DNA of 64,000 bases from Arthrobacter sp. ES3-54. Its GTDB lineage: Bacteria > Actinomycetota > Actinomycetes > Actinomycetales > Micrococcaceae. The stretch lies in assembly GCF_029504395.1 (NCBI RefSeq), contig NZ_JAQFIF010000003.1, positions 124,001 to 188,000 on the forward strand. Direction: 5' to 3'. Below, piece after piece: positions 2,277 to 26,778 of the stretch. The notes under the pieces were generated by a model. The model saw only the letters and a list, made by a program, of their open reading frames with translations. It searched no databases and was not told where the DNA came from. Numbering within the stretch: position 1 is the first letter of the stretch; the number at the start of each line of letters is the position of its first letter. A program made the position numbers and the translations under genes.

Positions 2277-3344
2277 CTAACGTTCCGCGATTTCCGCTGC
2301 GGCTTCCAGATAGGACAGGGCGCCGCTGGAAGAAGGATCATACGTCATGACAGTTTGCTGGTAGCTCGGTGCTTCGGAAATACGCACCGATCTCGGCACC
2401 ACCGCACCGAGCACCTGCTTCGGGAAGTGCTCCCGGACCTCGGCTGCCACCTGCGCGGCGAGGTTGGTGCGGCCGTCATACATGGTCAGCAGAATCGTGG
2501 AGACAACCAGATCGGCATTCAGGTGCTTCTGGATCATCTCGATGTTCTTCAGGAGCTGGCTGAGGCCCTCAAGGGCGTAGTACTCGCACTGGATCGGAAT
2601 GAGGACTTCGCCGGCCGCGCAGAAGGCATTAACCGTCAGCAGCCCGAGGCTGGGCGGGCAGTCAATGAAGATGTAGTCCAGCCGCTCCTCGCCATTTTTG
2701 GCGCGCTCCTTGGAGTACACATCGATTGCGCGGCGCAGCCGCTGCTCGCGGGCCACCAAGCTGACGAGTTCGATCTCGGCGCCGGCAAGGTGGATGGTGG
2801 CGGGCGCACAAATCAGGTTGTCGATGTCGGGGCACGGGGCCACAACATCCTTCAGCGGGACATCGTTGATCAGGACATCGTAGATGCTGTCGACGTCGGC
2901 GTGGTGCTCGATTCCCAGGGCCGTGGAGGCGTTGCCCTGCGGATCGATGTCGATCACGAGCACGTTCAGGCCAGCGGCCGCCAGCGCGGCGGCGATGTTT
3001 ACGGTCGTCGTCGTCTTGCCGACGCCGCCCTTCTGGTTGGAAACGGTGAAGACCCGGGTCTTTTCCGGTTTGGGCAGTTGCCGGCCGAACAATCGCTCAC
3101 GGCGCTTGTTTTCATGCGCGAGTTCCCGGGCGATGGGGCTGGAATCGTCAATGGAGTCCAGCACGTTCCCGGAATGCGTAAGAGAGGTTTCACGTGAAAC
3201 ACCGGCCATCCCGGTCGCCTTTGCAACCGAAGCCGTGTGATTTCCGGAGAAGTCAAAAGCTAGTGCAGGAGCCGTAAACGCCCGTGCGGACCCCAGGGAC
3301 ACAAACGGCGGGATCCGTTGTGTGGAGGCTTCGCTACTGCTCAC
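2277..3344 (-). CDS. parA: Chromosome partitioning ATPase ParA
   Basis: 355 residues from a GTG start. Deviant Walker A motif KGGVGKTTTTVN lies at about residues 104-115, DIDPQGNAST follows, and the Walker B segment is YIFIDCPPSLGLLT. This ParA/Soj ATPase binds DNA non-specifically and is recycled by ParB to segregate origins. The first ~95 residues are a poorly conserved extension; a second start at 3209 (MAGVSRET) is possible and would give about 310 residues. A parS site at 3187-3200 is translated here as VSRET. It is probably co-transcribed with parB and lies downstream of rsmG. Confidence 0.96.
   Translation of the reverse strand: MSSSEASTQRIPPFVSLGSARAFTAPALAFDFSGNHTASVAKATGMAGVSRETSLTHSGNVLDSIDDSSPIARELAHENKRRERLFGRQLPKPEKTRVFTVSNQKGGVGKTTTTVNIAAALAAAGLNVLVIDIDPQGNASTALGIEHHADVDSIYDVLINDVPLKDVVAPCPDIDNLICAPATIHLAGAEIELVSLVAREQRLRRAIDVYSKERAKNGEERLDYIFIDCPPSLGLLTVNAFCAAGEVLIPIQCEYYALEGLSQLLKNIEMIQKHLNADLVVSTILLTMYDGRTNLAAQVAAEVREHFPKQVLGAVVPRSVRISEAPSYQQTVMTYDPSSSGALSYLEAAAEIAER
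3186..3201. other. parS: parS centromere site 4, inside parA
   Basis: GGTTTCACGTGAAACA contains the 14-bp palindromic parS core GTTTCACGTGAAAC (3187-3200) in the 5' part of parA. ParB bound here sits within the transcribed parA leader or N-terminal region, depending on which parA start is used, and could repress the operon. Autoregulation is an inference. Confidence 0.85.
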
Positions 3345-6675: not shown

Positions 6676-7138
6676 GTTAGTTACTCCAGTGGATCAAAGG
6701 TGCGCCCACCCGATCAAGGGGAAGAACTGGCCGACGCTAAGTTTTGGTATGTGCCGCTTTCCTCAGACTCGCACGACGCGGGGCGTCAGGAGAGATTCAG
6801 ATGAGGCGAAAAGCGTACACATGGGACTTCACAACGTTAGGGCTTGCCGACCTCCCGAGTCAAACCGGGGATGGTTCCGCAAGCTATCCCCAGCTGTGGC
6901 TAACTGCTCCCGCAGCCTGTGGATGAAGTGCGTCACGCGGCCCTTTTGAGAACCACAACGGTGTAATTATCCACAGGACTGAACCCAGCTATCTTCTAGC
7001 GTTTTCATCCCCTACAGTGTCTCAGTAACCCCTTATCCACGGACTGTGCATAACCCTGTGGATTGAGCCGGGCCGGTGTACCGCTCCGGACCGCGTGGAT
7101 GCACGTAATGCAGGCCAGCAAGTTTGAGGAACTGATTG
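6676..7138. promoter_or_regulatory. rpmH-dnaA divergent spacer with DnaA boxes
   Basis: No gene seen. DnaA-box-like 9-mers cluster before dnaA: TTATCCACA (6967-6975, perfect), TTATCCACG (7033-7041), TGTGCATAA (7045-7053) and TGTGGATTG (7057-7065). These probably serve dnaA autoregulation and may be part of the origin, as in other actinobacteria. A GAGGAA ribosome site at 7127-7132 precedes the dnaA ATG. The rpmH promoter must also lie here. Confidence 0.75.
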
Positions 7139-8560: not shown

Positions 8561-9146
8561 GCCGTCCGTCGGCGCACTCTTACCTTATTAACAGGGCCCT
8601 GTGGACAACCCTGTGGATACTTAAGGGGACAACCGCGGTTAATGGGCTTAAAACCCTTAAGGCGCCTGTGGATCAGCGAACCGGCCAAAAAACTTGTCCC
8701 CATCCACACCCTGTTTAAAACCTGCTCCGCCCACAGTCCATGAACAGGGCTTAACCCCGGATTCGCACGGCAGGATCGAGTTATCCACAGTTTCCACAGC
8801 AGTTATTAACACTACTAATCCCAAGAAAATGAAATTCCCTCAAACAACAATCTCCTTCCCACCTCCGGGCAGTGCCTAGGCCCGTTCCGGACCGGCACCG
8901 CAGACCGGCCCCGCGAACAACACTCATGTAACCCGGGGATGGGAGAAACGCTCACCTTGGGGCTAAGCTGTCTGCAGTGCGTCCGTCCCGGACATCTTTT
9001 GTGGTTCCCAACGGGCCATGAGGCCAGGGGAGGGCGGACGATTCCCTTGTTGACGGAGTTCGGCGTCCCCGCCGAAGTCCGCGGCAGCTTGAGCAGTCTT
9101 AGCGATTTTCAGCACTAACAGCAGCAATGAAAGGCGGCACCCTTCC
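8561..9146. other. oriC: Putative origin of replication oriC (dnaA-dnaN spacer)
   Basis: 586 bp without a gene. One perfect DnaA box TTATCCACA lies at 8781-8789. Weaker boxes are TGTGGACAA (8600-8608), TGTGGATAC (8612-8620), TGTGGATCA (8667-8675) and CCATCCACA (8700-8708), with TTTCCACAG right after the perfect box. An AT-rich stretch at 8800-8870, beginning with GTTATTAAC (8802-8810), could be the unwinding element. The dnaN promoter lies in the 3' part. Origin function is inferred from the position, boxes and AT-rich tract. Confidence 0.8.
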
Positions 9147-23891: not shown

Positions 23892-24761
23892 ATGAGCTAC
23901 GGAGTTCCGGCGGCAGAGCCGTCCGCAGAGGTCCCGGTATGCCCCAGGCACCCGGACCGGCCCGCCTATGTGCGCTGCCAGCGGTGCGGGCGCCCTGCGT
24001 GCCCCGACTGCCAGCGGGCGGCCGCCGTCGGATTCCAATGCGTTGACTGTGTCAACGAAACCAAACGCACAACGCCGACAGTCCGAACCGTCTACGGCGG
24101 CGCCGTGACCGCCGGCAAGCCTGTGGTTACTTACGTGATCATCGGGCTGTGCGCCCTTGTCTATGCACTGCAGTGGATAGTTCCCAACGACGGGATCTAC
24201 CAGCAACTGGCTTACGCTCCCGCCTTGACTGACGTTGAACCGTGGCGGCTGCTCACCTCAGCGTTCCTGCACTCGCAGGGATTCCTGCTCCACATCGTCC
24301 TGAACATGTATACGTTGTGGATTTTCGGCCAGATCCTTGAGCCGCTCCTTGGCCACGCCCGCTTCCTGGCCATCTACCTGCTCTCGGCCGTCGGCGGCTC
24401 GGTCGGGTTCCTCCTGCTGACCCCGGTGTATCCCGTGAACGGCCCCGTGGGTCTCGTGGGCGCCTCCGGCGCCATTTTCGGTTTGTTTGGCGCGTTGCTG
24501 GTGGTCCAGCGTCAGCGCGGCGGAGAAGTCCGCCAACTCCTGGTCCTGATCGCCATTAACGGCGTCATCGGTTTCATGGTGCCCCAGATCGCCTGGCAGG
24601 CCCATCTCGGCGGCCTCGTCACCGGTGCCCTGAGCGCCGCTGTCATTGCATATACCCCCCGCGGCCCCCGGCAGACCCTGCTGCAGGCCATCGGCTTGGC
24701 CGGGGTCCTTGCCCTCGTGATCGTCGTGTCCGTCGTCCGGATGGCCGGCGCCAGCGTTTAG
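23892..24761 (+). CDS. Rhomboid family intramembrane serine protease with zinc-ribbon N-terminus
   Basis: 289 residues. The N-terminal module CPRHPDRPAYVRCQRCGRPA, then CPDCQ...CVDC is a B-box-like zinc finger. Six to seven membrane helices follow. The catalytic serine is in GASGAIFGLFGALLV and the catalytic histidine in AHLGGLVTGAL; the HIVLNMYTLW helix supplies oxyanion residues. It cleaves membrane-spanning substrates; none are known here. It follows the cyclophilin gene by 9 bp, and a hairpin at 24851-24880 ends the unit. Confidence 0.93.
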   Translation: MSYGVPAAEPSAEVPVCPRHPDRPAYVRCQRCGRPACPDCQRAAAVGFQCVDCVNETKRTTPTVRTVYGGAVTAGKPVVTYVIIGLCALVYALQWIVPNDGIYQQLAYAPALTDVEPWRLLTSAFLHSQGFLLHIVLNMYTLWIFGQILEPLLGHARFLAIYLLSAVGGSVGFLLLTPVYPVNGPVGLVGASGAIFGLFGALLVVQRQRGGEVRQLLVLIAINGVIGFMVPQIAWQAHLGGLVTGALSAAVIAYTPRGPRQTLLQAIGLAGVLALVIVVSVVRMAGASV

Positions 24762-24913: not shown

Positions 24914-24945
24914 CGCCTAAATTCATTCACATCGCCTAAATTCAC
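24914..24945 (+). repeat. Short direct repeat CGCCTAAATTCA x2
   Basis: CGCCTAAATTCA at 24914-24925 and 24933-24944, period 19 bp, at the left border of the DnaA-box cluster. AT-rich against a GC-rich background; the regular spacing resembles origin iterons, but only two copies are seen. Confidence 0.55.
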
Positions 24946-24985
24946 AGGTGCCGCCCGAAAAGTTTTCCACAACGGTTATCCACAT

Positions 24986-25002
24986 TGTTAATAACTTACA
25001 AC
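24986..25002 (+). repeat. Origin-like repeat module, copy 1
   Basis: TGTTAATAACTTACAAC, two bases beyond a perfect DnaA box (24976-24984). The identical 17 bases recur at 25631-25647, and the first 12 recur at 25352-25363. Confidence 0.75.
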
Positions 25003-25189
25003 CGTGTAGTTCACGGTGGCTGCCCGGATCTGACCGCCCGAGCTGGCGATTTTGCCGTGGCCAAGTGATGCGGCCAGCCTGATCTCCACACCTGTGGATA
25101 ACTTCTGTGGGCTGCCCTGTGAGTAAGTGGACAACTTTGATCCGCGGGCCCGCACCTTCCGCCGGCCGGAACCACGCCTTTCGCCGTCC

Positions 25190-25217
25190 CTGTTGCGCGG
25201 CAACTGCCGCGCAACAG
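25190..25217. repeat. 28-bp perfect palindrome
   Basis: Arms CTGTTGCGCGGCA (25190-25202) and TGCCGCGCAACAG (25205-25217), 2-bp centre AC. It lies in the GC-rich part of the DnaA-box cluster, without a T-run, so it is unlikely to be a simple terminator. It could be a protein-binding site or a cruciform. Confidence 0.7.
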
Positions 25218-25351
25218 TCGCGTCGTCTACGTCGCACTGCCCCTACCCCTAGTGTTGCCGCTGCTGGCGGATGCGGGGCGCCACAGAGTCCGCCTGTAGG
25301 AAAGCACGGTCCCTGGGATAGCCGCTGTGTGTTTCAACAGGTTATTCACAG

Positions 25352-25363
25352 TGTTAATAACTT
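25352..25363 (+). repeat. Origin-like repeat module, partial copy 2
   Basis: TGTTAATAACTT, one base beyond the near-perfect box TTATTCACA (25342-25350), so the box-plus-GTTAATAAC layout is kept. Confidence 0.65.
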
Positions 25364-25630
25364 GTTGGTCGGACTCTCCGGGGGAACTAACCCGGCTCAT
25401 GGCCCCACAGCGGGGGTCGCGGCTCCCAACCTCCCGTTGTTATCCCCAGCTGTGGATAACTTGTGGGTAGCGGCGTGTTATTAAGTGGATAACTTGCCCG
25501 GTGCCTTGCTGGCCGGCCGAGCGGCTTCATTCGGGGACCGGGCCTGCCAAAGGAGGACGCCGCGGCGCCACGCGAGGTCTGATTGGGCCCGATGGATGGC
25601 CTGCCGGACTTCTCCACAGGCAATCCACAC

Positions 25631-25647
25631 TGTTAATAACTTACAAC
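25631..25647 (+). repeat. Origin-like repeat module, copy 3
   Basis: Identical 17 bases to copy 1, again right after a CCACA box end (25621-25629). The following 14 bases also stay related (CGTGTAGTTCACGG versus TCTGTAATTCAAAG). Confidence 0.75.
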
Positions 25648-25816
25648 TCTGTAATTCAAAGCCAACCGGGGATCTCATCATCCGCGCTGGACCCGGCTGT
25701 GGCCCTTAAACCGAGCCGAAACGCACGAGGAGCCGGAAACTTATAAACAGTGTGGATAAGTTTCCCCAGACTTGTGCACAGCTGTGGATAAGGTCGGGTC
25801 ACCCCCGACCCGACTG

Positions 25817-26422
25817 TCAGTGCGGCCAGACGCCTGAGGTTCCGCGCCGGTGGCTGTCCAGCAGATGGGTGTCCACCATTCCGATAGCCTCCATGAGCGC
25901 GAACATCGTGGTGGGCCCGACGAAGGCGAAGCCCTTCTTGCGCAGCGCCTTCGAGAGCGCGATGGACTCGGCCGAGGTGGTGGGGACCTGGTCGAGGGAG
26001 CCGGGCCGGGGGGTGGCCGTAGGCTGGAATCCCCACACGAAGTCAACCAGGCCGCCGTCGTCCCTCAACGCCAAAGTAGCCCGGGCATTGGTGACGGTTG
26101 CCTGGATCTTCAGCCGGTTCCGGACGATCCCGGCATCGAGCATGAGCCGCTCCACATCGGCGTCTGTGAAGAGGGCCACGAGTTCCGGGTCGAAGTCCTT
26201 GAATGCCGCGCGGAAAGCGGGCCGCTTGCGCAGAATGGTGGCCCAGGACAGGCCCGCCTGGAACCCCTCGAGGCTGATCCGTTCGTAGAGGCCCTGCTCA
26301 TCCCGGACGGGCATGCCCCACTCGTTGTCGTAGTACTCGCGGAGCATGGGATCAACGGCCGCCCACGCCGGCCGCGCCAGTCCGTCGTCGCCAATGGTTG
26401 AGCCGCTTACTGCCGGGGTCAT
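25817..26422 (-). CDS. tag: DNA-3-methyladenine glycosylase I
   Basis: 201 residues from ATG at 26422, with AAGGA upstream; the frame runs open to 26653 but that part is not Tag-like. Tag removes 3-methyladenine from alkylated DNA. Signatures are YYDNEWGMPVRDEQGLYERI, the GFQAGLSWATILRKRPAFR helix region, and GFAFVGPTTMFALMEAIGMV near the end. The zinc ligands of E. coli Tag (an N-terminal Cys and C-terminal His/Cys) are only partly present: no Cys is seen in the core, while HLLDSHRR supplies His. It is transcribed away from the DnaA-box cluster's far side, ending 26 bp from the last perfect box. Confidence 0.9.
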   Translation of the reverse strand: MTPAVSGSTIGDDGLARPAWAAVDPMLREYYDNEWGMPVRDEQGLYERISLEGFQAGLSWATILRKRPAFRAAFKDFDPELVALFTDADVERLMLDAGIVRNRLKIQATVTNARATLALRDDGGLVDFVWGFQPTATPRPGSLDQVPTTSAESIALSKALRKKGFAFVGPTTMFALMEAIGMVDTHLLDSHRRGTSGVWPH

Positions 26423-26470
26423 CTGGATTCCTTCGCTGGGGCCGGATTGGTGTCGGGGTTTAACGACGGC

Positions 26471-26497
26471 GGGCCGGCACACTGTGTGTACCGGCCC
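26471..26497 (-). terminator. Hairpin after crgA
   Basis: GGGCCGG (26471-26477) and CCGGCCC (26491-26497), with four more inner pairs. It lies between the crgA stop and the tag start on the same strand. No T-run, so termination strength is uncertain. Confidence 0.4.
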
Positions 26498-26526
26498 GTC
26501 AGGGAATTGCGCCACGGGGGCCTGGT

Positions 26527-26778
26527 TCAGGAACGCCAGCGCGTGGTCATCAGGAAGCCGATGATCGCGATGCCGAATCCGGCGACGATGTTCCACGAGC
26601 CCCATGACTGAACCGGGAAGGCGCCCTCGGTGATGTAGAACGTGATGATCCACAGCAGGCCAATGATCATCAGGCCAAACATGACGGGCTTGAACCAGAC
26701 CGGATTGGGCTTGTAGGACTCCGCAGCAGAAGTCGGCGGGGCCACACGGGCAGTTTTACGCGGCTTCGAGACGGGCAC
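26527..26778 (-). CDS. crgA: Cell division protein CrgA
   Basis: 83 residues. CrgA is a small actinobacterial divisome protein that binds FtsZ, FtsQ, FtsI and the Wag31 system and coordinates septal wall synthesis. Layout fits: Lys/Arg-rich start MPVSKPRKTARV, then KPNPVWFKPVMFGLMIIGLLW (first membrane helix), a short loop FPVQSWGSWN, and a second helix IVAGFGIAIIGFLMTTRWR. It is divergent from the sortase gene and near the pknB/pbpA cluster, its normal context. Confidence 0.95.
   Translation of the reverse strand: MPVSKPRKTARVAPPTSAAESYKPNPVWFKPVMFGLMIIGLLWIITFYITEGAFPVQSWGSWNIVAGFGIAIIGFLMTTRWRS

Follow-up and report, generated by a model that had tools for sequence, protein, structure and literature searches.

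The systems closest to the locus described here are the datA and DARS loci of Escherichia coli and the DnaA-box clusters of Bacillus subtilis and Streptomyces coelicolor. The datA locus is a noncoding cluster of DnaA boxes at which DnaA-ATP is hydrolysed with the help of the nucleoid protein IHF, or DnaA is titrated; the stretch that we take to be datA from its map place (L221) has a facing pair of boxes at 2907(+)/2919(-). DARS1 and DARS2, which promote the release of ADP from DnaA, are small noncoding loci with two facing boxes and a third in tandem. The MG1655 stretches presumed, again from their map place, to be the cores of DARS1 and DARS2 have the order box(+), box(-), box(-), with gaps of 5 and then 3 bp. 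According to the passage on DARS in PMC8682772, boxes I and II oppose each other, ADP-DnaA makes head-to-head contacts there, and Fis and IHF sites are found at DARS2. The clusters of B. subtilis and S. coelicolor lie close to oriC, have a datA-like function, and repress untimely initiation, as described in a passage of PMC4585315 that names no crgA anchor, palindrome, or wider conservation. On the protein side, domain I of actinomycete DnaA is described as a conserved dimer in the relevant part of PMC13270200.

The window analysed, a stretch of 64,000 nucleotides from Arthrobacter sp. ES3-54, possesses a cluster of DnaA boxes at positions 24963-25791. It contains five perfect TTATCCACA boxes (24976(+), 25093(-), 25451(-), 25751(-), and 25783(-)), five with one mismatch (24963, 25342, 25440, 25484, and 25610), and ten with two mismatches, another two-mismatch box lying at 24923. 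On one side, the cluster is flanked by a rhomboid-family protease gene (23892-24761, plus strand), matched by NCBIfam rhomboid models with scores under the curated cut-offs. On the other side is tag, encoding DNA-3-methyladenine glycosylase I (25817-26653, minus strand; NCBIfam tag over residues 94-267, slightly under the curated cut-off), the real start of which is probably further in than that of the ORF as called. The density noted in a sequence-only reading of this DNA, with five perfect boxes and many near matches between the rhomboid gene and tag, is borne out by this recount. In Arthrobacter, tag sits between the cluster and crgA (26533-26775, minus strand; PF06781 above cut-off, NCBIfam CrgA models under their cut-offs), the anchor gene of the element discussed below. 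The degenerate pattern TTWTNCACA has ten matches in the window, compared with an expectation of 0.75 derived from shuffled sequence, and seven of these matches fall in the cluster. Over the whole genome (4.77 Mb in 35 contigs), 33 perfect boxes are found, against two for the reversed-pattern control, and the binomial probability of five of the 33 landing in 829 bp is 4e-14. Another three perfect boxes are packed into 466 bp at a distance of some 68 kb to the left of the cluster (G000:C3:80944-81409, L006-L008).

The cluster is modular, with facing box pairs repeating every ~280-370 bp and two copies of a palindrome, CTTACAAC..TGTARTTCA. The first pair, TTATCCACA / TTATTAACA with a gap of 1 bp (24976-24994, plus strand), is followed directly by the first palindrome copy, CTTACAACCGTGTAGTTCA (24995-25013, plus strand). 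Three pairs come next: ATCTCCACA / TTATCCACA with a gap of 2 bp (25082-25101), TTATTCACA / TTATTAACA (25342-25360), and TTATCCCCA / TTATCCACA, again with a 2-bp gap (25440-25459). The second palindrome copy, CTTACAACTCTGTAATTCA (25640-25658, plus strand), is preceded by a box TTCTCCACA with CAATCCACA and TTATTAACA (25610-25639). The last two pairs are TTATAAACA / TTATCCACA (25741-25759) and TTGTGCACA / TTATCCACA, with a gap of 2 bp (25772-25791).

Used as a BLAST DNA query, the cluster finds matches in 36 of 36 other genomes of the same genus and in none of 22 genomes from other families of the order. Among named loci of Arthrobacter, Pseudarthrobacter, and Paenarthrobacter (the best 80 of 176), 78 offer 900 bp or more of sequence beyond the rhomboid gene and two are too short. 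All 78 carry at least three exact boxes in the 1.5 kb after the rhomboid gene; their exact boxes number 478 in total (median 6), against nine in control stretches of approximately equal size. In genome G022 (L337-L342), tag and pknB were not found in the fetched 60 kb that follow the cluster, and 38 bp of cluster sequence have a match 0.83 Mb away; the missing genes and the displaced piece indicate a rearrangement or an assembly break at the cluster. Conservation of the boxes in relatives, proposed as a check in the sequence-only reading, reaches far beyond the genus, into the class and other classes of the phylum.

Across the class, the boxes are found beside crgA. CrgA (PF06781) was detected in 141 of 148 class genomes, and one stretch per genus was sampled in 78 genera, two extra stretches of genus g42 being excluded from the counts of this paragraph. 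Within 200 bp after crgA, 65 exact TTRTCCACA boxes occur in 49 of the 78 genera (4.18 per kb), whereas the remaining ~1.21 Mb of sampled stretches hold 46, a density after crgA about 110 times higher. When the distance is extended to 300 bp, exact boxes occur in 50 genera, and the number rises to 73 if one mismatch is allowed, the latter being a looser count made without a background run. The boxes usually lie in the gap separating crgA from a convergent rhomboid gene. A rhomboid gene was found in 69 of the 78 genera, and its end lies within 2.5 kb in 58, with a convergent orientation in all 58. In the 16 genera whose fetched stretch reached dnaA, this gene lies 7.7-17 kb from crgA. Dense noncoding DnaA boxes near oriC and not at it, a feature of datA and of the B. 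subtilis and Streptomyces clusters, are therefore also a feature of this locus. In G169, crgA lies elsewhere in the genome and the element is located 90 bp behind the rhomboid gene.

The element is composite. Its palindrome, ATNACANNNNTGTNAT, scores 9 or 10 of 10 in 40 of 80 crgA stretches, against none of 352 background windows; the best score is 7 in seven of the 80 stretches and 6 in twelve. From the 61 stretches scoring at least 8, 35 sequences of one layout were aligned (alignment A1). The consensus spans ~53 bp and reads GGAATNACACCGGTGTAATTC, a half box NTCCACA, four bases, and then TTGTCCACA-N-TGTGGANAA, the palindrome thus being followed by the half box and the pair of facing boxes. 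The best-conserved letters of this core are those of the DnaA boxes and of the palindrome. Other layouts exist, with tandem boxes in five of the 61 stretches and with variable spacing. The Arthrobacter cluster contains the same parts, and a sequence-only model of the element (R1) matches pieces of it, the top match in the window (25072-25111, 22.7 bits, model positions 23-61) overlapping the facing pair at 25082-25101. Because these parts are reordered and multiplied, the cluster is assigned to the class element by its place and its parts, and not by a single alignment.

Searched over 148 whole class genomes at an E-value of 0.01, R1 finds matches in 120 and none in the other 28. Best matches were listed for at least 103 genomes, 100 of which have a crgA call. 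Among these 100, the best listed match lies within 400 bp 3' of crgA in 87 and elsewhere in 13, two of the latter being of this genus, where tag intervenes. The 35 training genomes carry no evidential weight, since R1 was built from loci chosen beside crgA; once they are removed, the best listed match is beside crgA in 52 of 65 genomes. The element also extends to other classes of the phylum. Some R1 match is present in 33 of the 57 crgA genomes sampled there, and it lies within ~400 bp 3' of crgA in 21 and 5' of crgA in none, 36 of the 57 having no match beside crgA. Twelve genomes of that sample without crgA still have an R1 match somewhere.

Read on the opposite strand, the aligned core (35 sequences) is box(+), 1 bp, box(-), ~4 bp, half box(-), which is the same order as in DARS with other spacing. 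The facing boxes are separated by 1-2 bp here and by 5 bp in DARS; furthermore, the element lies near the origin and the palindrome takes the place of the IHF and Fis sites. This likeness is one of box layout and not of demonstrated sequence homology, and it compares the E. coli loci with an element known from its sequence alone. With datA, the element shares a noncoding box cluster and a facing pair, but the palindrome replaces the IHF site and the place beside crgA is kept across a class. With the B. subtilis and S. coelicolor clusters, whose hallmark is that initiation becomes more frequent when they are deleted and less frequent with extra copies, it shares the clustering of boxes near oriC. 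No description of a crgA-linked DnaA element was found among the papers listed in searches of an open-licence library. The S. coelicolor clusters, published in 2006, are reportedly named D78, H24, and H69, and one of them may be the crgA locus.

The palindrome is found at other loci as well. A copy together with a TTATCCACA box lies upstream of dnaA (6950-6980, plus strand), ~185 bp before the dnaA ORF, and is kept in nine of nine genomes of this genus. A one-mismatch copy is also present within the dnaA-dnaN spacer (8915-8931, minus strand). Of twenty secondary matches fetched from those listed, two are the G169 site and a site upstream of dnaA; the remaining 18 stand in a common promoter context whose flanks resemble NrdR boxes. 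In these 18 loci (L253-L261 and L263-L271), the palindrome and a TCCACA half box (CCACA in L267) are located in the nrdR-nrdJ promoter and have an NrdR-box-like sequence on either side; where scanned, the gene on the opposite side is lexA. Scanned ORFs include NrdJ in L253 and L270, NrdR in L258, and LexA in L258 and L261; a 206-aa ORF before NrdJ in L253 gave no match. This placement hints at a joint control of dNTP supply. At another locus, the palindrome stands directly upstream of a WhiB-family gene (L279:1501), beside a phosphomannose isomerase gene.

A stricter palindrome pattern occurs at 48 distinct places in 40 of the 148 genomes, and its reversed control at none. Thirteen of the 48 places precede a DUF3263 gene by at most 250 bp, and none follows one; a second pattern, whose own control was not clean, adds two places upstream of DUF3263 among the 64 listed. 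DUF3263 is present in 144 of the 148 class genomes. In the 260 bp upstream of this gene, the palindrome scores at least 9 in 10 of 20 chosen genomes, against 1 of 434 background windows, and the other ten score under 9; the window's own genome is among the ten that reach 9, and one of the 20, G083, was known beforehand. All six further loci reach at least 9, two of them known beforehand. The loci with the palindrome before DUF3263 include L361 and L355-L360. Conversely, G075 and G112 (genus g42) and G073 have DUF3263 without a good palindrome at crgA or before the DUF3263 gene. The palindrome upstream of the DUF3263 gene looks like a signature of self-control. Against PDB chains, a DUF3263 protein matches 9n2n_U (3e-40) and 9n2g_U (2e-35), whose chain name is Fis family transcriptional regulator, and the title of 9n2n is that of Mycobacterium tuberculosis NapA bound to AT-rich DNA. 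The gene with the palindrome in its promoter and NapA thus belong to the same family (DUF3263, PF11662; 9n2n, 9n2g), and we take the name NapA to denote a nucleoid protein. The fold model of the DUF3263 protein is middling, with weak matches suggestive of helix-turn-helix domains. Since the palindrome stands before DUF3263's own gene, the DUF3263 protein is the predicted palindrome binder. The naming of DUF3263/NapA as the partner is a guess drawn from motif placement. Gene placement suggests that a NapA-type protein may bind the palindrome, the DNA of the NapA structure being AT-rich and different from it; a link between NapA and either DnaA or the crgA element is our proposal.

The explanation that we favour, with moderate confidence, is that the cluster is an enlarged Arthrobacter version of a conserved element 3' of crgA. 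On this element, DnaA would bind in facing pairs with a dimeric protein next to them, perhaps the nucleoid-associated DUF3263/NapA, and would be restrained or reset after each replication start. From its boxes, DnaA would be expected to occupy the element in the cell. A site ~16 kb from oriC would be duplicated almost immediately after initiation; the duplicated site would take up or inactivate DnaA, and re-initiation would be delayed, in the manner ascribed to datA and the B. subtilis and Streptomyces clusters. A nucleotide switch would also be possible, because the facing-box core resembles E. coli DARS. The DUF3263 protein would bind the palindrome beside the DnaA boxes and, the palindrome being shared with the region before dnaA and with the nrdR-nrdJ promoters, one protein could couple the supply and the storage of DnaA with the supply of dNTPs. 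We favour a brake or switch near the origin that would bind DnaA and have a nucleoid protein as its partner, because of the DARS-like facing boxes, the domain-I dimer, and the B. subtilis and Streptomyces clusters. The element is predicted to be a brake or a switch on DnaA and not a second origin, titration and reactivation predicting opposite effects.

A broader reading is put forward tentatively, as somewhat less than probable. In the Actinomycetota, an ancient synteny-locked DnaA switch would lie beside crgA, where DnaA and DUF3263/NapA would assemble together, as the phylum's counterpart of datA/DARS with IHF/Fis. The same palindrome would link DUF3263 with dnaA, its own gene, and the ribonucleotide reductase operon nrdR-nrdJ, in one replication-control circuit extending from Arthrobacter to other classes. 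To our knowledge, how actinobacteria ensure one replication start per cycle is poorly understood, and we know of no actinobacterial SeqA, Hda, datA, or DARS. Since the noncoding element keeps a single address in most of the sampled genera of the class, is also found in other classes, and has a named candidate partner, once-per-cycle replication control in actinobacteria can be put to a direct test in harmless genera that grow fast. The element might also account for the persistence of crgA and the rhomboid gene near the origin.

Other explanations are less probable. The element could serve to organise or segregate the chromosome near the origin, DnaA and a nucleoid protein loading on it together with no role in initiation timing. 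The candidate partner belongs to a family with a member named NapA in a PDB title, and four parS-type sites, two of them perfect, lie on the far side of dnaA, around parB and parA (320-335, 352-367, 905-920, and 3186-3201). Inside the cluster, however, no parS-type sequence is found even when one mismatch is allowed, and the best-conserved core letters belong to the DnaA boxes and the palindrome, which makes this explanation unlikely. A little less likely still is a site acting only on the transcription of its neighbours crgA, rhomboid, and tag via DnaA. DnaA is a known transcription factor, and a cell-division gene adjoins the element. Yet the element lies 3' of crgA, and 3' of the rhomboid gene where this is close, positions at which a promoter is not expected. 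Furthermore, one flanking gene varies, being tag in Arthrobacter, while crgA is elsewhere in the genome of L272.

An RNA hairpin serving as a shared terminator of the convergent crgA and rhomboid genes, with a chance likeness to DnaA boxes, is considered very unlikely. The convergent genes flank the element (58 of 58 with the rhomboid end within 2.5 kb), inverted repeats lie inside it, and some rows of the alignment change both arms jointly, the double changes, pair types, and covariation score being reached by 14, 20, and 23 of 500 shuffles, respectively. However, the arms match perfectly in only 3 of 35 rows, and at 52 of 52 mismatched arm positions the DnaA-box letter is kept in at least one arm. 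The share of paired cells is at shuffle level (reached by 169 of 500), the boxes of some genera are in tandem (5 of 61), and in Arthrobacter the cluster and crgA are separated by tag. No Rfam family was found at the gathering score in 18 element loci, and positions 6500-27000 of the window gave two tRNAs only.

The anatomy of an origin is found at the dnaA-dnaN spacer (8561-9146), the likely oriC. The spacer contains a single perfect TTATCCACA (8781), which lies ~16 kb from the cluster, as the sequence-only reading had counted, and one TTGTCCACA besides (8600). The latter is a high-affinity box form for M. tuberculosis and S. coelicolor, per the list in PMC4285127. In nine of nine genomes of the genus, the spacer holds two exact TTRTCCACA, four to six boxes of at most one mismatch, and, around TTATTAACACTACTAATCCC, a run of 26-30% G+C per 50 bp; in the window, G+C falls to 30% at 8801-8850 and a CTACTA lies at 8812. 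In contrast, the minimum in the nine clusters is 32-40% G+C per 50 bp, and the DnaA-trio-like CTACTA/TAGTAG is found in none of them, whereas CTACTA is exact in six of the nine spacers. The cluster resembles a bacterial oriC in its box density and differs from it in having neither an A+T-rich stretch equal to that of the spacer nor a trio-like sequence, and in lying away from dnaA. As the spacer of all nine genomes combines a box array with a low-G+C run of a kind missing from the cluster, the cluster is probably not an origin. In S. coelicolor and mycobacteria, origins are likewise at dnaA-dnaN. The best pooled breakpoint of GC skew, a check proposed in the sequence-only reading, has a position of +6.5 kb relative to the rhomboid end; it fits better than dnaA-dnaN, but in the pooling each orthologous gene enters nine times. 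Breakpoints of single genomes spread from -45 to +44.5 kb, and at 4-fold sites the replication term is 0.027 against a gene-strand term of -0.16; because of this scatter and this small term, skew was given zero weight for or against. A true, second, or bipartite Arthrobacter origin moved ~16 kb from dnaA, although favoured by the larger number of boxes in the cluster and by the pooled skew, is the least credible explanation and hardly to be expected given the spacer anatomy. Of the two possibilities raised in the sequence-only reading, the relocated or second origin is not supported, and a DnaA-titration locus like datA or DARS fits, the cluster looking like a conserved accessory box element near oriC. 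A second group of DnaA boxes (L303:17377-17762) precedes the window start by 2.2-2.6 kb and the rhomboid end by 25-29 kb. The ORFs scanned near it gave no Pfam match, and at least two exact boxes within ~450 bp are found there in nine of nine genomes of the genus.
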